Source: a virus. Taken from it: a stretch of DNA of 33,920 nt. The number at the start of each line of letters is the position of its first letter. Within the stretch, counting starts at the first letter, position 1. A program made the translations under genes and the position numbers. Below, in pieces: positions 3,393-33,920 of this stretch. The DNA is taken from the IMG/VR virus record IMGVR_UViG_3300026097_001382, positions 1-33,920 of that record; one strand, written 5' to 3'. The notes under the pieces were generated by a model, which saw only the letters and a program-made list of their open reading frames with translations, was not told the DNA's origin and ran no database searches.

Positions 3393-5105
3393 ATGAAAAC
3401 TGGTTATATTTTAGGATTGAGTTGTGGGTTTCACGATTCAGCTGTATCTTTATTAAAAAATGGTAAAGTGATAGCTGCAGTAGAAGAAGAAAGATTTACT
3501 GGTATAAAACACGATTCATCTTTCCCTAAAAATAGTATAGATTGGATTTTTAAACAATATAATATTGGTTCTGATGATTTAGATGCAATTTGTTTTTACG
3601 AAATTCCTGATTTAAAAATAAATAGAATAAAAAAATCTACAAAGAGAGGTGGTATTTTTAATACCTTCAAAAGAAATAAAATAATTTCTAAAAATGTTTC
3701 TCAATACAAGTTATTTAAAAATGAACTTAATTCTATTAAAGGTAAGGATACTGAAATATCTTATGTAAATCATCACGACTCTCATGCTGCTTATTCTTAT
3801 TATACATCCCCATTTGATGAATCAACCATCTTATGTGTAGATGGAGTTGGTGAGTGGGATACTACTACTACCTATTATGGTAAAGAAAATAAACTAAAAA
3901 AGTTATCAGAAATACAGTTTCCACACTCACTTGGAATGTTGTATTCAACCTTTACTGCTTTCTTAGGATTTAAACCAAACGAAGGTGAGTATAAAGTAAT
4001 GGGTCTTGCACCATATGGGGATTACAAAAAATACTTATCTAAGTTTTCTCAACTCATTATACCAACTATTGATGGTGGGTTTGAATTAAACATGAATTAC
4101 TTTACCTTTGATTGGGATGATAAAACAATGTTTAACGAAAAGTTGGGACAGTTGTTTGGATTACCAAATAGATTACCAGATGAAGAACTTACCCAAGACC
4201 ATAAAGATTTAGCAGCAACTTTACAACATCAATATGAGTATTACTTTTTTAGATTATTAGATAAACTATATAAAGATAATCCCATAGAGAATATTTGTTT
4301 GGGAGGTGGTTCTGCTTATAATGGTACTGCAAATGGTAAAATACTTACTTATACCGATTATAAAAACTTATGGATTCCACCTGCACCATCTGATGCTGGT
4401 TCTGCTATTGGATGTGCTTTATATTATTATTATTCAACTAATAATGATGGAGAACGAATCGATAATACAAACCCATATCTAGGGCCATCTTATAATAAAG
4501 AGGATATACAAAAAAGTTTAGATTTATTTTCTAATCAAATAAATTATGTTGAAAGGAACGATACTGATTTAATTCCCTTAATCGCAAAACAAATAAAAGA
4601 AGGAATGGTAATTGGTTGGTTTGACGGTAGAATAGAATTTGGTGCACGTGCTCTTGGTAATCGTTCTATACTTGCAAATCCACGAGACCCTCATATGAAA
4701 TCAAGAGTAAATCGTGTAATTAAAAAACGAGAAGGGTTCAGACCATTTGCCCCAATAGTTAGATGGGAAGACCAGGATAAATTTTTTGATTACCCACATG
4801 AAGTTCCTTATATGAATCAAGTTGTAAAGGTAAATTATAAACATACTTCCAAACTTCCTGCAATTACTCATGTAGATGGTACTGCAAGAATACAATCTTT
4901 AAAATCAAATCAACACCCAAGAATATATAAACTTCTATCAGAACTTGAAAAATTAAATGGTTATCCGATTGTACTTAATACATCATTTAACTTAAAAGAC
5001 CAGACAATGGTATTAGACCCAAAAACAGCAATTGAAACTTTTTTAAATTGTGAAATGGATACTCTTGTTATAGAAAATTATATTATAAAGAAAAAAGTTT
5101 CATAA
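3393..5105 (+). CDS. Carbamoyltransferase, NodU/TobZ family
   Basis: Family members make carbamoyl-adenylate from carbamoyl phosphate and ATP and transfer the carbamoyl group to a hydroxyl on a sugar or similar acceptor. At 570 residues the length is normal. Visible motifs are GLSCGFHDSAVSLL (8-21), AAVEEERFTGIKHDSSFP (28-45), the metal-site block NHHDSHAAYSYY (about 126-137), CVDGVGEWDTT (about 148), EGEYKVMGLAPYG (about 197), and in the C-terminal domain GRIEFGARALGNRSILANPR (about 412) and PAITHVDGTARIQ. All expected elements are present, so it should be active. The acceptor is unknown: a modified nucleotide, a surface glycan or a virion sugar. Relatives occur in cyanophages and other large phages. 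It starts 2 nt after gp55. Confidence 0.93.
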   Translation: MKTGYILGLSCGFHDSAVSLLKNGKVIAAVEEERFTGIKHDSSFPKNSIDWIFKQYNIGSDDLDAICFYEIPDLKINRIKKSTKRGGIFNTFKRNKIISKNVSQYKLFKNELNSIKGKDTEISYVNHHDSHAAYSYYTSPFDESTILCVDGVGEWDTTTTYYGKENKLKKLSEIQFPHSLGMLYSTFTAFLGFKPNEGEYKVMGLAPYGDYKKYLSKFSQLIIPTIDGGFELNMNYFTFDWDDKTMFNEKLGQLFGLPNRLPDEELTQDHKDLAATLQHQYEYYFFRLLDKLYKDNPIENICLGGGSAYNGTANGKILTYTDYKNLWIPPAPSDAGSAIGCALYYYYSTNNDGERIDNTNPYLGPSYNKEDIQKSLDLFSNQINYVERNDTDLIPLIAKQIKEGMVIGWFDGRIEFGARALGNRSILANPRDPHMKSRVNRVIKKREGFRPFAPIVRWEDQDKFFDYPHEVPYMNQVVKVNYKHTSKLPAITHVDGTARIQSLKSNQHPRIYKLLSELEKLNGYPIVLNTSFNLKDQTMVLDPKTAIETFLNCEMDTLVIENYIIKKKVS

Positions 5106-6012: not shown

Positions 6013-7247
6013 GTAATAGATTAACTTATTCAAATCAAATATCATCAAAGATAAAATCTAAAAAAAGTGATGTAAAATTAGCTATTGTTTTAGATGTAGT
6101 TACCGATGATACACATCCTATAATTTTTGATTTGGGAATATCAAATAATACCGGTGATGGCAGAAATACAAGTGTAATTGGTTCGGTAAAGCTTAGAAAG
6201 TTGGATGATGTTACATCTTCAGTTGATTCATTATTATATTATCCTCCCCTAGATTATGGTTCAATAGATTTACCTATCGTTGGTGAAATTGTAGAAATTA
6301 TTACTAATGGATCAGGTAAAAGATTTTATCGAAGAATAACCACTTCAAAATTAAATACTGGAAACGCAAATATAGATACAGAAAAAAATTTAAATCCTGT
6401 AATAGAAGAATCATCATCTGATAAATCAACTAATTACAAAAATACATCTCAGACCGGTACTCCCTCATCTACTAATGATGAGAATGATACTTTCGAAAAC
6501 AAATACTTTGAACCATCACAGATAAATCATCTTATTTTATATGAAGGTGATAAATTAGTCCAATCACGATTTGGTCAATCAATCCGTTTTAGTGGTTTTA
6601 ATAATGAAAATAATGTATTCTCACCAACTATTATTATTAGAAACCGACAAGGTGATAAATCAATAGAAAATTTAAAAGAAGGAACTCCAACAGAAGAAAA
6701 TTTCATTGATGATGGTTCAACAATTGCGATGACAAGTGGTGAATATGAAATGGGGTTTGCTCCAGGTACAGTTGATACTCCACTTGAAACCACTCCAATT
6801 TATACAGAAGAACCAGAATTAAAAGGAACTGATCAAATCCTTATTAATAGTGGTAGAATTATTATTTCATCTAAAGATTCAGAAATGATGTTTTACTCAA
6901 AGGGTAATTACTCATTTGTTTCGGATGGTAAATTAACTATTGATAATGGATTAGATGGTGCCGAAATGGATTTTAATGGTGAGGTTAGAATGACCACAAA
7001 TTCTAATGATATATTTTTAATAGGAGATGGTGGAGAAATTTACTTAAACACTGAATCTAATGAACAACCTCTCGTAAGGGGGAATGTACTTGTAGAGATA
7101 TTACAAGATTTAATCGATACAATCAATCAACAAGTTTTCTTAACACCATCTGGTCCAACTTCTGCTGGCCCAACAAACTCAACCGATTTCAATACTATAA
7201 AATCTAGACTAGAAGATTTTCTTTCTACTACAAACTACACTGAGTAA
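6009..7247 (+). CDS. gp5: Baseplate central spike/hub protein, gp5-like
   Basis: T4 gp5 forms the needle at the centre of the baseplate through an OB-fold and a beta-helix. This 412-residue protein has a beta-rich N-terminal half with an OB-like entry (DLPIVGEIVEIITNGSGKRFYRR, about 97-119), then a Ser/Thr/Asn-rich linker (about 125-165). The block YEGDKLVQSRFGQSIRFSGF (about 178-197) and ILINSGRIIISSKDSEMMFY...GEIYLNTES (about 277-350) follow, and their short regular strands fit the beta-helical spike. No lysozyme domain is inserted, unlike T4 gp5; the lysozyme-like gene at 1812 is separate and has a signal peptide. The next gene starts at its stop (TAATG). Confidence 0.72.
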   Translation: MSNRLTYSNQISSKIKSKKSDVKLAIVLDVVTDDTHPIIFDLGISNNTGDGRNTSVIGSVKLRKLDDVTSSVDSLLYYPPLDYGSIDLPIVGEIVEIITNGSGKRFYRRITTSKLNTGNANIDTEKNLNPVIEESSSDKSTNYKNTSQTGTPSSTNDENDTFENKYFEPSQINHLILYEGDKLVQSRFGQSIRFSGFNNENNVFSPTIIIRNRQGDKSIENLKEGTPTEENFIDDGSTIAMTSGEYEMGFAPGTVDTPLETTPIYTEEPELKGTDQILINSGRIIISSKDSEMMFYSKGNYSFVSDGKLTIDNGLDGAEMDFNGEVRMTTNSNDIFLIGDGGEIYLNTESNEQPLVRGNVLVEILQDLIDTINQQVFLTPSGPTSAGPTNSTDFNTIKSRLEDFLSTTNYTE

Positions 7248-7813
7248 TGTCTTTACAAATTTTTAAATCAAATATGTTAAGATTTATGCAAAATCAAGAA
7301 GGTATAGAATCTTCTGATGATTTTGCGGATAAATTTGTTAGTGAGTATGATTTGATGGTAAAAAGAGGATTTCAAACTATAAATAATGTACCTATTCAAA
7401 TGGGTAATACCGAAACTATGAAAACCTTTTGTAGAATTGCAACTCAAACGGCATTATCGGTACGAGAAGGTAATCATACTTTTATTGATGATTTAGGTAA
7501 TGCAATTGTATTTTATTGGTCAGGTGCAACTTTAATAACAGGCATACCACCCGTAATACCGGCAGTGGGTTCGTACCAAAACATAACTACAACAAATGCA
7601 TCTGTTATAAATCCTGGTACATGGACTCCAATTGGCCCAACATCGCCAATAAATGATTCAAATATTTTTTTAGATACTTTATTGGCTGGAATACAATCAC
7701 ATTTACCTTCTATACAATTTTTATATAATACAATATCATTATATCCAAGTGTACCTCCAACTCCTCCTGCACCAGGAGTATTAACATCTAATGGATACAC
7801 GATACCACAATAA
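7247..7813 (+). CDS. Hypothetical virion-block protein, 188 residues
   Basis: The start is coupled to the gp5-like stop (TAATG, 1-nt overlap), which implies matched expression and perhaps a physical partnership. Residues about 1-85 look mixed alpha/beta (FKSNMLRFMQNQEGI; MKTFCRIATQTALSV). A hydrophobic Gly/Pro segment follows (GATLITGIPPVIPAVGSY, about 93-110). The C-terminus is Pro-rich (PSVPPTPPAPG, about 167-177). I recognise no family. By position it is likely a baseplate or tail component. It ends before a late promoter-like box at 7848. Confidence 0.7.
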   Translation: MSLQIFKSNMLRFMQNQEGIESSDDFADKFVSEYDLMVKRGFQTINNVPIQMGNTETMKTFCRIATQTALSVREGNHTFIDDLGNAIVFYWSGATLITGIPPVIPAVGSYQNITTTNASVINPGTWTPIGPTSPINDSNIFLDTLLAGIQSHLPSIQFLYNTISLYPSVPPTPPAPGVLTSNGYTIPQ

Positions 7814-23748: not shown

Positions 23749-24315
23749 TTGGCTGTACTTATTAACCATAAACAGAAATGGGGGTATATACATATTCCTA
23801 AAACTGGCGGAACTTCATTAACTAAATTATTACAACATCAACCAAATACCGAAGTAATAACTGGTCATGATTCTATCCGAGTTTTCATTCCATATTCAGA
23901 TTATTTTATTTTTACAATAGTAAGAAATCCATTTACTAGAATATTATCTGCGTATTATCATGGAATTAGAAAAGGGGAGTATGATTATTCTTTTGGTAAT
24001 TTTTTAAAAAAGACTAATTATTTAAATTTAACTATATTACCACAAACATTTTATGTTAATTCAAAAACAACTAAAATATCGTATATTGGAAAATATGAAG
24101 ATTATAATGAAAGTGTAAAAAATATTTTTAATAAATTGGGGTATAAACTGAACACAATACCACATTTAAATTATAACCCCATATACGATAAACATCCGAA
24201 CCTAAAACAAGAAAAATATTATAAACATCTTTACACTGAAGAGTGGATGAAAGATTTGGTTCGAGAAAAGTATAAAGATGATTTCAAACAATTTAACTAT
24301 GACTTGGAAATATAA
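23749..24315 (+). CDS. Sulfotransferase, PAPS-dependent
   Basis: Sulfotransferases move a sulfate from PAPS to a hydroxyl or amine on a sugar or small molecule. The 188-residue protein has the 5'-phosphosulfate loop IPKTGGTSL (residues 16-24, Lys18 key) and the 3'-phosphate block FTIVRNPFTRILSAYY (55-70, Arg59 and Ser67). Spacing and sequence match the short sulfotransferase family that acts on carbohydrates. No ATG fits, and the first usable codon is TTG at 23749, so the start is less certain. It has no signal peptide and should be cytoplasmic. The acceptor is unknown; candidates are host surface sugars or a phage glycan. Its 3' end overlaps the GIY-YIG gene. Confidence 0.85.
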   Translation: MAVLINHKQKWGYIHIPKTGGTSLTKLLQHQPNTEVITGHDSIRVFIPYSDYFIFTIVRNPFTRILSAYYHGIRKGEYDYSFGNFLKKTNYLNLTILPQTFYVNSKTTKISYIGKYEDYNESVKNIFNKLGYKLNTIPHLNYNPIYDKHPNLKQEKYYKHLYTEEWMKDLVREKYKDDFKQFNYDLEI

Positions 24316-24739
24316 AGGAGAATATATTACTCAACTTGAAGATATGCCCGAAAATGTTTTTGGGTTTATTTATAAAATCACCAATACTACGACTGGTGAA
24401 TATTACATTGGAAAAAAACAAGTAGTTTCAATTCGAAAAAGAAATTTTGGTAAAAAAGAAATTGCCTTACTTGAAGATAAGAGAATAAAAAAATACGAGA
24501 TGGTTACTAAAGAATCTGATTGGAAATCATATCGTTCTTCAAACCAAACAGTAAAAAATTGGTTTTTAGATGAATCATTGGTTTCTCATTGTGATTTAGA
24601 AATACTTCGTTTTTGTTCTAACAAAAAATCACTAACTTATTATGAATTACAAGAACAATTTACACACGATGTTCTTGGTGATGAACTTGCTTTAAACGAA
24701 AATTTATTAGGTAAGTTTTACCGAAAAGATTTGGAATAG
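24299..24739 (+). CDS. GIY-YIG endonuclease
   Basis: The GIY-YIG domain is visible at GFIYKITN (residues 22-29) and YYIGKK (35-40). It is followed by ESDWKSYRSSN (about 73-83) and YYELQEQF, where the Glu fits the catalytic position of this phage family. I recall the same layout from many T4-like phages, as putative mobile or repair-type nucleases. An ATG at 24278 would add 7 residues, but the MTWKYKGEY start is more like relatives as I remember them. The gene overlaps the sulfotransferase end by 17 nt. Its last codons (K-F-Y-R-K-D-L-E-stop) and the promoter that follows are copied again at 25425-25477. It may be a free-standing homing-type nuclease. Confidence 0.82.
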   Translation: MTWKYKGEYITQLEDMPENVFGFIYKITNTTTGEYYIGKKQVVSIRKRNFGKKEIALLEDKRIKKYEMVTKESDWKSYRSSNQTVKNWFLDESLVSHCDLEILRFCSNKKSLTYYELQEQFTHDVLGDELALNENLLGKFYRKDLE

Positions 24740-24779: not shown

Positions 24780-25427
24780 ATGAAAAATATCTGGATTTTC
24801 GGTAGTTGTTTTTCTTGGGGGTATGGTTGTAGACCATCATATGAATATTCACAAAAATATAAAACCCAAGATGATAAATTATGGACAAGTATCTTATCTG
24901 ATAAACTAGAATTAAACTTAATAGATAAATCTATTCCTACTTATGCAACAAATTTTGATGTATTAAAATCGTTTATCTTAAATATCAACGATATTAAAAG
25001 TGGTGATATTGTTATCTATGAAATAGTCAAACCTCTTGGTTTTTTAAAACTAAATCAGTCAAAAACTAAAGTAAGGGGATATACATCATATACTTTTGAT
25101 AAAGATAAGTTTTGGAGAAATGATGAGGATAAAAAAATAGGTATTCAATATGTTGATTTAAATATCAAGGGATATGACAAACAATGGGTAGATTTCTTTT
25201 ATCCACAAGTAGATAGTTTATCTAAAATTTTATTAGATAAAAATATTAAAACATTTGTTTGGTCATACGAAGTATATGAGGGAGAATCTAGATTTGAAAG
25301 TATATCTACTGCCACTAATGAATCTATTAGTGATTATCATTATAGTTTTGAAGGTCATAGACAAATGTCTAAATATATATTAAATATGATTGAAAGTAAT
25401 CAACATATTAAGTCTAAATTAATTTAA
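24780..25427 (+). CDS. SGNH-hydrolase-like protein
   Basis: SGNH proteins are esterases, lipases or acetyl-transfer enzymes with a Ser-Asp-His site. The 215-residue protein has the block I equivalent IFGSCFSWG (6-14), where Ser9 or Ser12 is the candidate nucleophile, and the block V equivalent DYHYSFEGHRQMS (185-197), matching D-x-H-x-S-x-x-G-H with Asp185 and His187. Blocks II and III are not clear, so activity is probable but unproved. It has no signal peptide. It may deacylate or acylate a sugar. The gene is flanked by direct repeats (24712 and 25425) and has its own host-type promoter, so it looks like an inserted cassette. A second, diverged SGNH-like gene is at 29743-30447. Confidence 0.7.
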   Translation: MKNIWIFGSCFSWGYGCRPSYEYSQKYKTQDDKLWTSILSDKLELNLIDKSIPTYATNFDVLKSFILNINDIKSGDIVIYEIVKPLGFLKLNQSKTKVRGYTSYTFDKDKFWRNDEDKKIGIQYVDLNIKGYDKQWVDFFYPQVDSLSKILLDKNIKTFVWSYEVYEGESRFESISTATNESISDYHYSFEGHRQMSKYILNMIESNQHIKSKLI

Positions 25428-25489: not shown

Positions 25490-26431
25490 ATGATATCACA
25501 TCACGATAAACAACAAGTAGTAAATATACTCAACGAAGTATTGGGTTATGGTACTTCTATGAAAGGAGATGAACAAGCACACCATTGTCCGTTCTGCCAT
25601 CACCACAAAAAGAAGTTACAGGTAAACCTACAAACTCAACAATGGCACTGTTGGGTATGTGATTCAAAGGGTAGAAAGATTTCTTCGTTACTTAGAAGAC
25701 TTCATGTAGATGCCCATAAACTGAAAAAGTTATATGAAATCTATGGAGATGATTATGTAGTATATCAACAAGATACTGAAGAAGAAAAGGTAGAGTTGAG
25801 GTTACCTAAAGAGTTTCAATCACTATTAAAACAACCAAAAGGATTAAATCCTTTGTTCGGAAAGGTGAAAGAATATGCAAAAAGAAGAGGAATCACACGA
25901 GAAGATATCATCAGATATAATATTGGGTTTTGTGATACTGGTCTTTATACCAATCGTATTATTATTCCTTCCTATGATTCAAATAATAAACTTAATTACT
26001 TCATCGCGAGGAGTGTATATGATGAGGAAAAATTTAAATACAAAAATCCGCCGGTTTCGAAAAATGTTATTATGTTTGAAAATCAAATAAATTGGAATGA
26101 ACCCATTACCTTAGTAGAGGGAGTATTTGATGCAATGGCAGTAAAAAGAAATGCAATCCCTCTACTTGGTAAGTTCGTACCAAAAAAATTAAACGATAGT
26201 ATATATAAACATGGAGTAACCAAAATCAATATCTTACTCGATGAAGATGCACAAGAACAAGCACTAAGACATACCATACAGTTCCAAAATCAAGGTATAG
26301 AAACTAGAAATATACTCCCATCAAATAAAGATGCTTCGGATATGGGATTTAAAGAAGTTAACACAATACTAAAAAATTCACAAAAAACAGGATTCGGTGA
26401 TATTATATCACAAAAATTAAAAGGTTTATGA
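25490..26431 (+). CDS. gp61: DNA primase, T4 gp61-like (DnaG type)
   Basis: The primase makes short RNA primers for lagging-strand synthesis with the replicative helicase. The 313-residue protein has an N-terminal zinc-binding domain (HCPFCHHH with Cys33 and Cys36; HCWVCDSKGRKI with Cys54 and Cys57). Next comes RRGITREDIIRYNIGFCD (about 132-149), as in DnaG-type RNA polymerase domains, and then a TOPRIM domain with Glu210 in LVEGVFDAMA and Asp251/Asp253 in LLDEDA. The length is close to T4 gp61 (342). The start follows a perfect host-type promoter, consistent with early expression. The stop overlaps the next ATG by 4 nt (ATGA), coupling it to the recombination nuclease. Confidence 0.92.
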   Translation: MISHHDKQQVVNILNEVLGYGTSMKGDEQAHHCPFCHHHKKKLQVNLQTQQWHCWVCDSKGRKISSLLRRLHVDAHKLKKLYEIYGDDYVVYQQDTEEEKVELRLPKEFQSLLKQPKGLNPLFGKVKEYAKRRGITREDIIRYNIGFCDTGLYTNRIIIPSYDSNNKLNYFIARSVYDEEKFKYKNPPVSKNVIMFENQINWNEPITLVEGVFDAMAVKRNAIPLLGKFVPKKLNDSIYKHGVTKINILLDEDAQEQALRHTIQFQNQGIETRNILPSNKDASDMGFKEVNTILKNSQKTGFGDIISQKLKGL

Positions 26432-29400
26432 TAATAAACAAAATTTATCATTTGGCAGATTTACACATTAGAAATCTCCAAAGACACAAAGAATATCGTT
26501 CAGTATTCAAAAAGTTTTTAAAACAAGTTAAAGAAGATAAAATCGAAGATTCGGTTATTTACCTTGCAGGTGATATTGCTCATGCAAAAACAGAAATGTC
26601 ACCAGAACTTGTACAAGAAATCTCGTGGTTCTTAACAGAATGTGCTAAGTTAAGAGAAACCATCTTAATCACAGGTAACCACGATTGTAACTTAAATAAT
26701 TCACATAGATTAGATGTACTTACTCCAATCGTTGAGAATCTTAAAAATGATAGGATTCATTATCTTCGAGATACTGGTGTTTACAATATCCACAATCTTA
26801 CTTTTGTTGTTTACTCTATTCTTGATAACAAAGAGAACTGGCCTAAAGGAGAAGATGTAGAAGGAGAAAATAAAATTGTTTTGTTCCACGGGCCAGTAAA
26901 CAAAGCACAAACTGATATTGGTTACACCGTCTCTTCAAACTCATTCCAAGTGGATATGTTTGATGGGTTCGATATGGCAATGTTGGGTGATATTCACAAA
27001 AGACAAACTTTTGGTGAAGGTTATGAGTGGGTTGCTTATGCAGGTTCTATGGTTCAACAAAATCATGGTGAGATGTTAGAGAATCATGGTTACTTATTAT
27101 GGGATGTTCCTACTCGTACTTTCACCGAACATCATATTCATAACGATTATGGATTCTTAACTGTTGATGTAGTTGATGGTAAAATTCCACAATGGGTTTA
27201 CGATGAAGTTGATACTAAACTTCCAAAGTACCCTCGTTTAAGATTGAGGTTTACCAATACCGAACCAAGTGATATGAAACTTCGTATCACCGAGTTGAAA
27301 AAACTATTCAAGGTTGCAGAAGTTACGGTAACAAGAACAGATACAATCGGTCAGTTAAAAACAAACCAAAAGGTAAATAAAAACATTGTTGGTGATGTTA
27401 AAGATGAAACTTTCCAAAACTCACTAATTAGAGATTATCTAGAAAGACAGTATCTTTTAGAACCAGAAGAATTAGATAAGATACAAGAAATAAATAAAGA
27501 GTTAAATACTCAAATAGATAATTCAGATATAGTAGGAAATATTCTTTGGACACCAAAAACCTTTGAGTTTTCTAATATGTTTTCCTATGGTGAAGATAAC
27601 ATAATCAGATTTGATAAAGCACACGGTATCATGGGTATCTTTGCTCCTAACGCAAGTGGTAAATCTTCAATGTTCGATGCACTATCATTTTGTATATACG
27701 ATAAAAACTCAAGAACACACATTGCTAAAAACATTTTAAATAATCGTAAAGATACTTTCTATTGTAAGTTTAACTTCGAGATTGATGGAGTAGATTACTT
27801 CATTGAACGAACTGCTAAGTATGTTAGAAAGAAAACTGCGGTAAAAGTAGATGTCAACTTCTGGTCTGAAAGTGGGGGTGTTACAACTTCACTCAACGGA
27901 GAACAAAGAAGGGAAACCAATACAAATATCGAAAAGTTCTTAGGTAAGTTCGAGGATTTTGTTTTAACTACACTATCTCTACAAGGAAATAATGCACTTT
28001 TTATTGATAAATCACAAACCGAACGAAAAGAAATCCTTTCTCAATTTATTGGAGTAGATATCTTCGATAAATTATACCAAAAGGCATCAGATGAGAATAG
28101 GGATAATGCAACACTTATCAGAAAATTCAAGTCCGATGATTTTACGACAAAATTGGCCGACATCGATACCCAATTAAAAACCGACAAGAATAATTACAAA
28201 TTGTTGGAAATAAACCAAACGGCTTTAAAAACAGAGGAAGAAACCTTAAATAAACAAATTATCAAATTAAACGAGAAAATCGTTAAGTTAAAAGCAGATA
28301 GTGGGGTTTCGTTGGATGAGTTGGAAAATAGACATTCTATTCTTGTAAAAAAGAAAAAAGAAGTTATCTTATCTAAATCATCAATCCAAGAAAAAATTAC
28401 TCATAGAGAAGAATTACAATTAACTCTTGAGGAAATCATTGATAAGTATGATGAAGAAGAATTAAGTAATTCTATTCAAGTGATTGATACAACCAAACGA
28501 GGATTAGAAAAAAATCAATCAGAAATCGATAAAGCTCAAATCAAGTTAGATTCTCTTTACGAAAGAAAACAACATTTAGATTCTCACAAATACAATGAAA
28601 AATGTGAGGTATGTATGGAAAACTCAGAAACCATATTACAAGAAAAGGCTAAAGTTGATTCTTCAATTCAAGATGGAGAATCTTATATCCAATCTTGGAA
28701 AGAAGTTAATAAAAAATTACAACGGATTTTAGATAATTCAGTCGGTATATTAGAAGATTGGAAAAATCTACAAGAATCAAAAGAAAAAGAAGATAAGATT
28801 GATAGAGAAATATCACAACTTCATAATCAACTTGCAACTAAAGAAACCGAAGAAGTTAAAGTAGAAACTCAAATCGATCAATTAGAAAAGTTGATTGAGG
28901 AATATATCAAAAACGAAGAACAAATTCAAGAGAACAAAGAAATTAGAGAAGAAATATCTGGTGTTCGTTCTAAACTTACCATCACTAAAGATGACCTAAC
29001 CAAGATTGATAAAGATATTCTAAGATTGAATGGTAAGATTTCTGCTCTACAAAATCAGAAAGAATCTATCATTGAACGAATCAATGAAGTTAAAGAATTA
29101 GAAGAACAATCTAAGTTATTTGATTATTACCTAAACTCTCTTTCTAAAGATGGTGTTTCGTATGAGTTGATTGAGAAATCACTTCCAATGATTGAAGGTG
29201 AGGTAAATAATATCCTTGCACAAATTGTAGAGTTTGGAATGCAATTAGAAATGGATGGAAAAAATATTAATGCCTATATAGTTTATGGAGACCAAAAGTG
29301 GTCTTTAGAAATGTGTAGTGGTATGGAACGATTTATTAGTGGACTTGCAATCCGAGTTGCCCTAATCAATGTATGTAACCTCCCTAGACCTAATTTCCTT

Positions 29401-29589
29401 GTGATTGATGAAGGTTTTGGTACTTTGGATAGTGAGAACCTACAATCCTTATTTATGTTGTTTACATACCTTAAAACACAGTTTGATTTCGTAATGGTAA
29501 TCTCACATATCGATTCAATGAGAGATGTGGTAGATGGTCTTATTGAAATTAAGAAAACACCAGAAGGATTTTCACAAGTTAAGTTTTAG
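26428..29589 (+). CDS. gp47-gp46: Fused Mre11-Rad50-like recombination nuclease (gp47-gp46 in one chain)
   Basis: T4 gp47 and gp46 (SbcD/SbcC, Mre11/Rad50) form a nuclease complex that resects DNA ends for recombination-dependent replication and host DNA breakdown. Here both lie in one 1053-residue frame. The N-terminal half is a metallophosphoesterase: HLADLH (Asp11, His13), LAGDIAH (Asp49), ITGNHD (Asn84, His85), HGPVN (His154), LGDIH (His190). The C-terminal half is a Rad50-like ATPase: Walker A GIFAPNASGKSS (403-414), long coiled coils around a zinc-hook CEVC (726-729), signature CSGMER (963-968), Walker B FLVIDE (990-995). All key residues are present and no stop or internal start separates the halves. 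Coupled to primase by ATGA. The convergent 3' end overlaps the next gene by 11 nt. Confidence 0.95.
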   Translation: MIINKIYHLADLHIRNLQRHKEYRSVFKKFLKQVKEDKIEDSVIYLAGDIAHAKTEMSPELVQEISWFLTECAKLRETILITGNHDCNLNNSHRLDVLTPIVENLKNDRIHYLRDTGVYNIHNLTFVVYSILDNKENWPKGEDVEGENKIVLFHGPVNKAQTDIGYTVSSNSFQVDMFDGFDMAMLGDIHKRQTFGEGYEWVAYAGSMVQQNHGEMLENHGYLLWDVPTRTFTEHHIHNDYGFLTVDVVDGKIPQWVYDEVDTKLPKYPRLRLRFTNTEPSDMKLRITELKKLFKVAEVTVTRTDTIGQLKTNQKVNKNIVGDVKDETFQNSLIRDYLERQYLLEPEELDKIQEINKELNTQIDNSDIVGNILWTPKTFEFSNMFSYGEDNIIRFDKAHGIMGIFAPNASGKSSMFDALSFCIYDKNSRTHIAKNILNNRKDTFYCKFNFEIDGVDYFIERTAKYVRKKTAVKVDVNFWSESGGVTTSLNGEQRRETNTNIEKFLGKFEDFVLTTLSLQGNNALFIDKSQTERKEILSQFIGVDIFDKLYQKASDENRDNATLIRKFKSDDFTTKLADIDTQLKTDKNNYKLLEINQTALKTEEETLNKQIIKLNEKIVKLKADSGVSLDELENRHSILVKKKKEVILSKSSIQEKITHREELQLTLEEIIDKYDEEELSNSIQVIDTTKRGLEKNQSEIDKAQIKLDSLYERKQHLDSHKYNEKCEVCMENSETILQEKAKVDSSIQDGESYIQSWKEVNKKLQRILDNSVGILEDWKNLQESKEKEDKIDREISQLHNQLATKETEEVKVETQIDQLEKLIEEYIKNEEQIQENKEIREEISGVRSKLTITKDDLTKIDKDILRLNGKISALQNQKESIIERINEVKELEEQSKLFDYYLNSLSKDGVSYELIEKSLPMIEGEVNNILAQIVEFGMQLEMDGKNINAYIVYGDQKWSLEMCSGMERFISGLAIRVALINVCNLPRPNFLVIDEGFGTLDSENLQSLFMLFTYLKTQFDFVMVISHIDSMRDVVDGLIEIKKTPEGFSQVKF

Positions 29590-30530: not shown

Positions 30531-33500
30531 ATGGCAATAATTAAGAAATTTTCATCTTACCAAAATCTAACAAACGTACAAACCGCATATGTGGATACTA
30601 ATCCGAATTCTGATTACTTTAGAATTACAGAATTTAATGAAACATTTACAGGTGGTAAAAATGGTTTCCTTATTGAAGGTTCGCCTTTATTAAAGGAAAG
30701 TACCGAAGTTAAGATTGAAATCCTTGATGTAGAAGGAAATCCTATCTATTATGAACCAGGTGATGGTATACCCGAATATTATGAGGGAATATCTAAATTA
30801 GTTTCTGTTCATGTATATGATGATACTCCCATTGGTCTTGGTAAGATAACAATTCTTGGTGAGGCAAAACAATTTATTGATATTAATGGTAATACACAAA
30901 ATGTACCAGAAAGTGAAAAGGGTTTTTATAATGTTAAGTGGGAGAGAACATTTCAAATAAATAAAAATTTAAACAACGAATCTATTGTTCGTTTTTATAA
31001 AAAACCTCAAATTCAAATTACAGAACTCGTAAAACCAATATTTTCTAAAACCATACCACAAGTTACCGATACGGTAGAAGTTACGGGAGAACCCCAAATA
31101 CCATCGTTTGATACTGATTTAAGTACATGGAGAGCAGGTACTACTTACAAACTAATACGAACAACGAGTTCTTGGGATAGAGATGTTGATGAAAATACAA
31201 TCACAGTTGATGTAAATGGAACTACCTTTTCTTCAAATATTATTGAAGTTTTAAATGATAGGGAAGTTCTTGTAGATATTCCATATACTGAAAATAATTT
31301 AGTTAAATCATTTGTATCACAATCCTCTTCAGTTACTTACTCAGATTTCCAAAATGAAATTGTAGGAGAATCTACCTTAACTGGTTCTTTTGCAAAAATT
31401 GATATGTCCCAACTTAAAACATTTGTTGGGGATGTTGCAAGAGTAAAGGTATTTAGAAAATCAAGACAATCTGCAGGAGATTTTCAATTTGTTCAAGAAT
31501 CTAAATTAGAATCTACAGAGTTATTACGAGATATTACTACCCAACAAAATACAGAATTATCATATGGTAGATTTGATGAAACTAACTTTGATACGTATTG
31601 GGAAACATCTTCTATTTCACATCCAACATCAATAAACTCTTCGGTATTATCACAAGCAGTAAAAGTTGATTACGATTCAAATGTAGGTGGTGTTCAAAAG
31701 TTAGTTACTAAAAATTCTTTTTCTATTTCTCAAGATGTAGAATATACTTTATCTTTTAGAACTTTATTAAGTGGTTCTATTGATTCTGAAAAATACATAG
31801 ATGTATATTTTAGTGGATCATATACAAATTCATTTGGAAATCCTGCTACATATACTCAATCATTTATGAAAATCGATGGCGATGATATTTACACTACTCG
31901 TCAAAATGTATCTCAAAATATTTTAGGTGAAAGAGATATTGATGCTAAACTAGTATTTGAATTTAAAGGAGATGATTGGTACATTTCAAATGTAAGTTTA
32001 AGAAATGCCCAAGAAACTTCATTTTCACCAGATGAGTTTACTTTAATACAAGATATACCAAGAAAACTAGCTTCTGAAACTTTTGATTTTCGATTTGAGT
32101 TTTACGATATAAATAACAATTACATACCTGTTGATGTTTTATCATCTGCAACTTTCGATGGTGGTAATGATTTTCCAACAAGTGGAAAGCTATTAACCTT
32201 TGAATCAGATAGAAATGCGTTTAGATTTGAAAGTGGTTCTGTTGCTAATCCATATAACCAAACCATACAATTTAAAGTAACATCACAAAATTTAACAGGT
32301 TCTATTTTATTTACATCTCAAGCATTTGATATAGATGGTAATTTATTAGACCCAAATGATTACACACAATATCCAGGAAATCTTACAAACATAACTCCAG
32401 CTGGTGCTTTACTTACACTAAGTAATTTTACAGGTTCTAGAGTGGATGGGTTACAAACTCCGTATGTTGGTTCAATTGTTTATACCTCATCATTAGAAAA
32501 TTTAGAAGAATTTGAAACAGTTTACAGATTAGAGGATGGTGATAATGCACCTCAACTTATTGTAACTTCTAATGCTAATCAATTTATTTACGAACCAACA
32601 ACTCTTTCACCAAAACCAAGTGGACAGAGTATTACCGTTCGTGCTCAAAGAAAAAACTTAGCATCATTAATTACTCCACTTACAATAAACAAAAGTGATT
32701 CAAATGGACCTGATTTAAACTTTGTAAGTACTCAAAATGGAATTGATACTTATACCATTTCTGCATTACAATTTTCATCTTCATTTTCTCAAAATAACTT
32801 TGATGAAATAACTTACTCATTCACAGGTTCAGATGTATTTGGTAATCAACAAAGTGATGAAATAACCTTATCAAAAGTAATTAACTTTGATGGGGTTTCT
32901 GTTGTTCTTTCAAATGAGGCAACATCATTTAGGTCAGATTCTACTGGTACAGTAACTTCTGATGAATTTGATGAAGGAGATGGTACGGTTGATGTTAGGA
33001 TAGGTTCAAATGTAATTTCACATAGTGAAGGTCTTGGTACAAAAAATACATTTGATATAATTTCAGTAACACCTTCAACTGGATTAACTGCAAATGATGA
33101 AACACCAACTACCAACTCATATGGTATTTCTGCAATGTCAGTTGATAAGGGTAATTTAACTTTGTTAATTAGATATAAGGCTGGTGATAATTCAACAACG
33201 GTAGATTTTAGTAAAAAAGTTTCTTATACTAAATCAAAAATTGCCGCTCCAGTCTTATCAATTGAAACCACGAATAAGGATCAAACGGTAAGTGCACTTT
33301 CAACTGGAGAACAAGTTGATTCTTTTTCAAATTCAGTAGTAAATGTTAAAGAACAATATGAAGGAAGTTCTAGTACACGAACAATTACATCATTAACCGC
33401 AACTTCATCTGGTATTTCAAGTATAGTTACTAATCCTACTACGGGTACGATTACTTTAAATGGTAGAACTTTAGCAAACGGTACTAACTCCACAACAATT

Positions 33501-33920
33501 TCAGTTACTGCAACAGTAGTTGATACGGAAGGAACAACAAGAACTATAACTGATACAATTTCTCTTTCAAAAGTTAAAAATTCAGCTCCTGTTGTTATTT
33601 CTTCTGTAAACCCACAAACACAAACAGTAGATTCGGATTCATCATTTAGTAGTGTTGGTACTCCGCAAAATGTAACTCTTATAGTAAATGAAGGAGGTTC
33701 AAACTACACTTACGGAACGAGTGGTAATAATACATTTCAAATAACAAATATAACAGGTGGTTCTCATATTGGTAATGGTGTAGTTACACCAACTACTCCA
33801 ACTAATGAAACAGGTACTAGTGGTACTATAACTTTTTCGTATATAAATTCGGAAGGAACTTCGTTTACAAATAAAACAATAAATTTTAGTGTTGGTGTTG
33901 CCGTACAAGGTGCAGATGGT
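30531..33920 (+). CDS. Large tail-fibre or adhesin protein, partial (runs off the window)
   Basis: The frame is open for 1130 codons from the ATG at 30531 to the window end, with no stop, so the C-terminus is missing. The start has a late promoter-like box and a TAGGAG site. The N-terminal part (about 1-170, MAIIKKFSSYQNLTN...GKITILGEAKQFIDI) probably attaches to the particle. The body is beta-rich and Ser/Thr/Asn-rich. From about residue 680 there are tandem Ig-like units, each ending in a similar strand: EITLSKVINF, KKVSYTKSKI, DTISLSKVKN and then INFSVGVAVQGADG. The last reads like the entry to a Gly-rich collagen-like or tip region. The likely role is host recognition. No enzyme domain is seen in the visible part. 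Confidence 0.85.
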   Translation, partial: MAIIKKFSSYQNLTNVQTAYVDTNPNSDYFRITEFNETFTGGKNGFLIEGSPLLKESTEVKIEILDVEGNPIYYEPGDGIPEYYEGISKLVSVHVYDDTPIGLGKITILGEAKQFIDINGNTQNVPESEKGFYNVKWERTFQINKNLNNESIVRFYKKPQIQITELVKPIFSKTIPQVTDTVEVTGEPQIPSFDTDLSTWRAGTTYKLIRTTSSWDRDVDENTITVDVNGTTFSSNIIEVLNDREVLVDIPYTENNLVKSFVSQSSSVTYSDFQNEIVGESTLTGSFAKIDMSQLKTFVGDVARVKVFRKSRQSAGDFQFVQESKLESTELLRDITTQQNTELSYGRFDETNFDTYWETSSISHPTSINSSVLSQAVKVDYDSNVGGVQKLVTKNSFSISQDVEYTLSFRTLLSGSIDSEKYIDVYFSGSYTNSFGNPATYTQSFMKIDGDDIYTTRQNVSQNILGERDIDAKLVFEFKGDDWYISNVSLRNAQETSFSPDEFTLIQDIPRKLASETFDFRFEFYDINNNYIPVDVLSSATFDGGNDFPTSGKLLTFESDRNAFRFESGSVANPYNQTIQFKVTSQNLTGSILFTSQAFDIDGNLLDPNDYTQYPGNLTNITPAGALLTLSNFTGSRVDGLQTPYVGSIVYTSSLENLEEFETVYRLEDGDNAPQLIVTSNANQFIYEPTTLSPKPSGQSITVRAQRKNLASLITPLTINKSDSNGPDLNFVSTQNGIDTYTISALQFSSSFSQNNFDEITYSFTGSDVFGNQQSDEITLSKVINFDGVSVVLSNEATSFRSDSTGTVTSDEFDEGDGTVDVRIGSNVISHSEGLGTKNTFDIISVTPSTGLTANDETPTTNSYGISAMSVDKGNLTLLIRYKAGDNSTTVDFSKKVSYTKSKIAAPVLSIETTNKDQTVSALSTGEQVDSFSNSVVNVKEQYEGSSSTRTITSLTATSSGISSIVTNPTTGTITLNGRTLANGTNSTTISVTATVVDTEGTTRTITDTISLSKVKNSAPVVISSVNPQTQTVDSDSSFSSVGTPQNVTLIVNEGGSNYTYGTSGNNTFQITNITGGSHIGNGVVTPTTPTNETGTSGTITFSYINSEGTSFTNKTINFSVGVAVQGADG

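Follow-up and report, generated by a model that had tools for sequence, protein, structure and literature searches.

A single-chain SbcD-SbcC (Mre11-Rad50) fusion conserved in a clade of aquatic myophages

The two halves of the Mre11-Rad50 machine are encoded separately in phage T4 (gp47 and gp46, 339 and 560 amino acids) and likewise in E. coli (sbcD and sbcC). Can a phage make both as a single polypeptide? The question is raised by a 33,920-nucleotide stretch of virus DNA (IMG/VR record IMGVR_UViG_3300026097_001382, positions 1 to 33,920; hereafter the window), whose plus strand carries a gene at 26428-29589 that a preliminary description, made from the sequence alone, had read as a gp47-gp46 (SbcD-SbcC) fusion, setting it against the two proteins of T4. 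We confirm that this gene encodes an SbcD/Mre11 and an SbcC/Rad50 half, each of them complete, in one chain. Fusions of this kind have been known since 2011 (Yoshida, Claverie and Ogata, 2011; PMC3175470), and the window's gene is a well-supported further case.

Two complete enzymes in one reading frame

The gene is a single ATG-started frame of 1053 codons with no internal stops. Its start codon and the stop codon of the primase gene before it overlap within the sequence ATGA (26428-26431), as is typical where the translation of two genes is coupled. Pfam places Metallophos (calcineurin-like phosphoesterase) at residues 5-191 (E 4.4e-9) and AAA_23 (Rad50/SbcC-type) at residues 382-618 (E 6.1e-11), both above cut-off, along with a weak match to SbcC_Walker_B at residues 961-1012 that falls under it (E 0.0042). 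PHROG 77, an SbcC-like phage family, spans residues 283-1051 (E 1.5e-53). The earlier claim that both enzyme halves lie in one 1053-residue frame is thus borne out by the uninterrupted frame and by both family databases.

We also built an AlphaFold2 model of the full-length fusion from 52 relatives (mean predicted local distance difference test score, pLDDT, 80.7) and a second model of residues 1-372 (mean pLDDT 86.4). Structure comparison of both halves supports the fusion: S. aureus SbcD aligns with the Mre11 part (Z 25.5, 3.0 Å over 275 residues), as does the E. coli SbcD structure, and the head of E. coli SbcC aligns with the Rad50 part (Z 32.0, 3.0 Å over 349 residues, from residue 374). 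For each half, E. coli SbcCD is one of the closest structures, although it shares only ~20% identity and has a much longer coiled coil.

The fusion is continuous in all near relatives

T4 and SPO1 have two separate genes, near each other and in the order 47 then 46, so a lost stop codon would yield the fused arrangement. The frame might therefore represent two adjacent genes joined by a sequencing or assembly error. We scanned viral contigs twice, with the fusion protein and then with the alignment, taking the best 80 matches per scan; this ranking, by likeness to a fused query, samples distant split homologues too thinly. One open frame crosses the junction in 144/144 distinct viral contigs, corresponding to 132 distinct frame sequences, and is full length in 121 of the contigs. 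Identity to the window's fusion is ~40-90%, and all near relatives found are fused. Independently sequenced isolates, such as Microcystis phage Mel-JY01, carry the continuous frame as well. These independent contigs rule out an assembly error or a missed frameshift joining two frames, the probability of which we regard as practically negligible.

The preliminary description had proposed looking for the same domain order in other phages, and it is indeed found in both isolates and uncultured huge phages. The Mel-JY01 protein (39% identity) is annotated as 'AAA domain containing protein', that of Rhizobium phage RHph_TM30 as 'SbcD-like', and those of Tenacibaculum phages PTm1 and pT24, Sphingomonas phage PAU and Chryseobacterium phage MA9V-1 as 'metallo-phosphoesterase'. 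The uncultured huge phages LR756508 and LR756501 have the same fused arrangement.

A scan of species genomes gave ten loci in metagenome-assembled genomes. The junction is crossed in five, two of which are full length and possibly misbinned phage contigs. Among the others, one locus (L174) ends after the Mre11 part, one (L175) is cut by the contig end, and two (L176 and L177) align over a portion of Rad50 only, at 22-23%. A further locus (L173, 5001-5834), on a 287-kb contig filed as Bacteroidales, encodes a stand-alone SbcD of 277 amino acids with a GHIH motif; it lies downstream of a primase-like gene, with one short gene between, and has no adjacent SbcC. It is a possible split relative. 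A search of plasmids gave matches to the Rad50 part only.

A substituted metal ligand in the Mre11 half

The phosphoesterase domain (residues 1-240; 26428-27147, plus strand) is assigned from the Metallophos match, from profile matches to T. maritima, P. furiosus and E. coli Mre11/SbcD, and from the fold match. It carries D11/H13, D49, N84-H85, H154 and GDIH (187-190), satisfying the motif set DxH, GD, GNH, H and GHxH save for the first His of motif V. The preliminary description had listed D11, H13, D49, H85, H154 and H190 as intact, and every one is present, but it had overlooked D188 in place of this His. The Mre11 profile pairs the fusion's GDIH with GHIH of T. maritima Mre11, and D188 falls at the position of His206 in P. 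furiosus Mre11. The domain is followed by a capping domain (residues 241-304; 27148-27339, plus strand), recognised from the secondary structure of the model and the alignment to S. aureus SbcD; the S. aureus nuclease-plus-capping structure (7dog) aligns as far as residue 303, and SbcD/Mre11 chains align with the fusion model to residues 302-308.

D188 is invariant in 52/52 aligned relatives and H13 is replaced by Gln in 9/52, while the other catalytic residues are invariant or nearly so. Elsewhere, motif V is GHxH in T4, SPO1, E. coli and one Kyanoviridae homologue, but GDLH in the split SbcD of the T5-like phage KookSpook and GHIH in the fused PAU protein; the His-to-Asp change hence does not strictly separate fused from split proteins. 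It is also reported for Mimivirus R555, at the His206 position (Yoshida et al., 2011; PMC3175470). A fixed substitution shared with R555, together with the H13Q variants, could be taken to indicate an enzyme with a specialised or regulatory role, its nuclease activity changed or lost, that acts mainly as a DNA-bridging or end-tethering ATPase. However, Asp is a plausible metal ligand, the remaining catalytic residues are kept, and GD-x-H also occurs in a split SbcD, making this explanation rather unlikely in our view.

In LR756508 (484 kb), the fused gene is interrupted by ~0.9 kb (~6630-7590) shortly past GDIHKRQ. The insert contains a frame of ~300 amino acids that has CxxC motifs and matches a TnsA-like nuclease domain (PF08722, 5.7e-6). 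It is probably a mobile intron or a homing insert that sits within the motif of the active site. An Rfam search gave no matches in either the window or this contig.

The Rad50 half

The ATPase half also has all its expected parts. Its N-lobe (residues 373-543; 27544-28056, plus strand), assigned from AAA_23 and the match to the E. coli SbcC head, contains Walker A (403-413) and the Q-loop (Q519). An antiparallel coiled coil follows (residues 544-905; 28057-29142, plus strand), in which the model shows helices at 544-718 and 727-905 around the zinc hook CEVC (residues 726-729; 28603-28614), whose two Cys are invariant in 52/52 relatives. The C-lobe (residues 906-1053; 29143-29586, plus strand), defined by its motifs, the same SbcC head match and the alignment, contains the signature CSGMER (963-968), Walker B (D994-E995), the D-loop (D1001) and the H-loop (H1027). 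The core of the signature is SGME rather than SGGE. The bipartite ABC head is thus complete, with Walker A, Q-loop, signature, Walker B, D-loop and H-loop invariant in 52/52 relatives. Walker A (G403...GKS413), the zinc hook, the signature and the end of Walker B are all where the preliminary description had put them.

The junction between the halves

Three elements separate the capping domain from the Rad50 head. The first is a poorly ordered tether (residues 305-326; 27340-27405, plus strand) with low pLDDT and low sequence conservation; pLDDT drops below 50 at residues 307-318 in the full-length model and 307-322 in the shorter one. The second is a helix-loop-helix (residues 327-360; 27406-27507, plus strand), the Rad50-binding element of Mre11, with helices at 327-341 and 346-360 in both models. 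Mre11 chains from Mre11:Rad50 complexes align through this element (3tho_B to residue 362 and 6s6v_A to 364), at a high root-mean-square deviation that a different placement of the helices in the free half would explain. The third is a connector (residues 361-372; 27508-27543, plus strand), defined by the model and the alignment of relatives, which is 12 residues long in 50/52 relatives and 11 in 2/52, with a variable sequence. As indels are rare across the family, this constant length is by itself weak evidence for a geometric constraint. In one full-length relative (L059, 5995-8991; 999 amino acids), ~55-60 residues are missing from the capping domain and the tether behind it (roughly window residues 261-318), with both enzyme halves still in frame.

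The preliminary description had placed a linker at about residues 340-385. This range does cover part of the Rad50-binding element, but its boundaries are off and it mixes three elements: the second helix of the helix-loop-helix, the ~12-residue connector, and the first Rad50 strand (from 373).

The chain could also be made fused and then give separate Mre11 and Rad50, through cleavage at 305-326 or through internal initiation. The poor order and weak conservation of residues 307-322 would suit a cleavage site. On the other hand, inspection of the linker revealed no Shine-Dalgarno-like start able to give free Rad50; the nearest in-frame start, M384 (27577), lacks such a sequence and falls among the first strands of Rad50. 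Conservation at synonymous sites across the linker is not unusual either, and together these results argue against an internal start or dual product from the linker. Separate subunits are therefore unlikely unless the protein is cleaved, and a cut at 305-326 would strand the helix-loop-helix on Rad50; we know of no split system in which Rad50 carries this element. On balance, separation of the halves by either route seems very unlikely.

Gene neighbourhood and genome content

Directly upstream of the fusion is a DnaG-type phage primase gene (25490-26431, plus strand; PHROG 47, E 4.1e-50) related to Twort ORF023. A primase gene precedes the fusion, in the same orientation, in 145/145 relatives whose contigs reach far enough upstream, and in 107 of them it is within 800 bases. 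Nine long relative records (101-289 kb) each contain exactly one AAA_23 (Rad50) gene, the fused one, and the four longest (190-289 kb) contain a RecA/UvsX family gene. The phage thus seems to have no Mre11-Rad50 besides the fusion, and its genome to supply the other components that recombination-dependent replication of the T4 type would call for.

The window also encodes homologues of myophage baseplate wedge and hub-lysozyme proteins, a weak match to a tail protein, and a peptide deformylase. Upstream of the primase is a SegE-like GIY-YIG endonuclease gene (24278-24739), with a similar gene in the flanks of 91/145 relatives, and a 215-amino-acid frame of no known family (24780-25427) that was detected in 1/145 relatives even though the surrounding genes are shared. 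Downstream of the fusion, a frame of 1130+ amino acids (30531-33920) runs off the window end; it occurs near the fusion in 115/145 relatives and has no family match in Pfam or PHROG. A sulfotransferase-like gene (23749-24315) and a NodU-type carbamoyltransferase gene (3393-5105) likely have small-molecule or glycan modifying functions.

A single-chain machine for end resection

What would a phage do with such a protein? We consider it highly probable that the fusion is the phage's only Mre11-Rad50 machine made as one polypeptide, working as an M2R2-equivalent homodimer in end resection like T4 gp46/47. Two chains would pair through their Rad50 heads (as an ATP sandwich) and through the Mre11 dimer surface. 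The helix-loop-helix of Mre11 would dock on the base of the coiled coil, probably that of its own chain, since a connector of ~12 residues is long enough to bridge the ~28 Å from the Mre11 C-terminus to the Rad50 N-terminus. Such a complex would resect double-strand ends to 3' single strands for a phage RecA/UvsX-type recombinase and, by analogy with T4 gp46/47, would feed recombination-dependent replication together with the neighbouring primase, perhaps also degrading host DNA. A fixed 1:1 stoichiometry of Mre11 and Rad50 is a fair inference from the fused chain. SbcC/SbcD have been described as nearly universal and among the core recombination genes in jumbo phages (PMC7824862), and have been reported essential in Salmonella phage SPN3US (PMC5105663).

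Several points weigh against this proposal. The full-length model has a predicted template modelling score (pTM) of 0.48, and its placement of Mre11 relative to the Rad50 head is unreliable. D188 replaces a canonical metal-ligand His, and metal preference or activity may differ. Post-translational cleavage within the poorly ordered stretch is possible, and no RecA was found in the five shorter relative records (101-130 kb), which are probably fragments.

Relation to known fusions and split systems

Yoshida et al. (2011; PMC3175470) described Mimivirus R555 and twelve further Mre11/Rad50 fusions, including those of Bacillus phage 0305phi8-36, plasmids, bacteria and eukaryotes, and argued that a 9-12 residue linker and the fused order are sterically compatible with T. 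maritima Mre11:Rad50. They also found R555-like genes in very large numbers in aquatic metagenomes of the viral fraction, next to phage primases (Twort ORF023, SPO1 gp21.95), and suggested that these aquatic genes may derive from phages rather than giant viruses. Like the R555 family, the window's protein is a Mre11-first single chain with a ~12-residue connector and Asp for His206, and like the R555-like metagenome genes beside Twort/SPO1-type primases, its gene lies beside a Twort-type primase. However, R555 belongs to a eukaryotic giant virus and has 1351 amino acids, whereas the window is from a tailed myophage and its fusion has ~1053. When the whole model was compared with a library of viral structures, the top five matches were from eukaryotic giant viruses related to mimivirus: Tupanvirus (26% identity), Yasminevirus, Harvfovirus, Catovirus and Terrestrivirus. 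These top matches share 21-26% identity with the fusion, against 14-17% for other fused phage proteins (R555 itself was not compared); the pT24 and PTm1 proteins rank below the giant-virus proteins, at 15-17%.

The fusions of PAU (gp288), PTm1 (gp075), pT24 (gp019), MA9V-1 and LR756501 have the same domain order in one frame, but are longer than the window's (1202-1326 amino acids), share ~23-28% identity with each other or the window's group, and are annotated only as metallo-phosphoesterase or DNA repair protein; PAU keeps GHIH. T4 gp47/gp46 and the SPO1, T5-like and Kyanoviridae homologues share both enzyme halves with the fusion, as well as the order of the genes and a presumed role in recombination-dependent replication. 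They differ in being two separate proteins; in addition, T4 has a shorter coiled coil, and T4 and SPO1 have GHxH.

In an unrooted tree of both halves from 22 proteins (R555 not included), 15 fused proteins, comprising the window clade, the PAU/PTm1/pT24/MA9V-1 type and LR756501, split off from the split ones with support of 96/95. RHph_TM30 has a very long branch and is not placed with the other fusions with support (74/89 for all fused proteins as one side); it may be an independent fusion. As the tree is unrooted, the direction of change cannot be read from it.

Given its myophage-like contig, the Twort-type primase upstream, and mimivirus relatives as the nearest viral fold matches, we infer that the window belongs to the phages predicted by Yoshida et al. 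(2011; PMC3175470). Somewhat more speculatively, and only as a tentative possibility, the phages of this clade could be the source of the aquatic R555-like genes, with R555 exchanged with their lineage and the tied, Asp-substituted Mre11 forming a distinct subtype.

A natural single-chain Mre11-Rad50 with fixed 1:1 stoichiometry is a convenient object for work on structure and mechanism. What gives the finding its value is not the domain fusion as such but that the phage clade is large and coherent and agrees with a suggestion left open in 2011. A fusion known from a few scattered cases now extends to a large, coherent clade of aquatic myophages with more than 130 distinct viral sequences, always downstream of a primase, and this clade lends support to the earlier proposal that, among the 'Mimivirus-like' R555 genes in aquatic metagenomes, many are phage genes.

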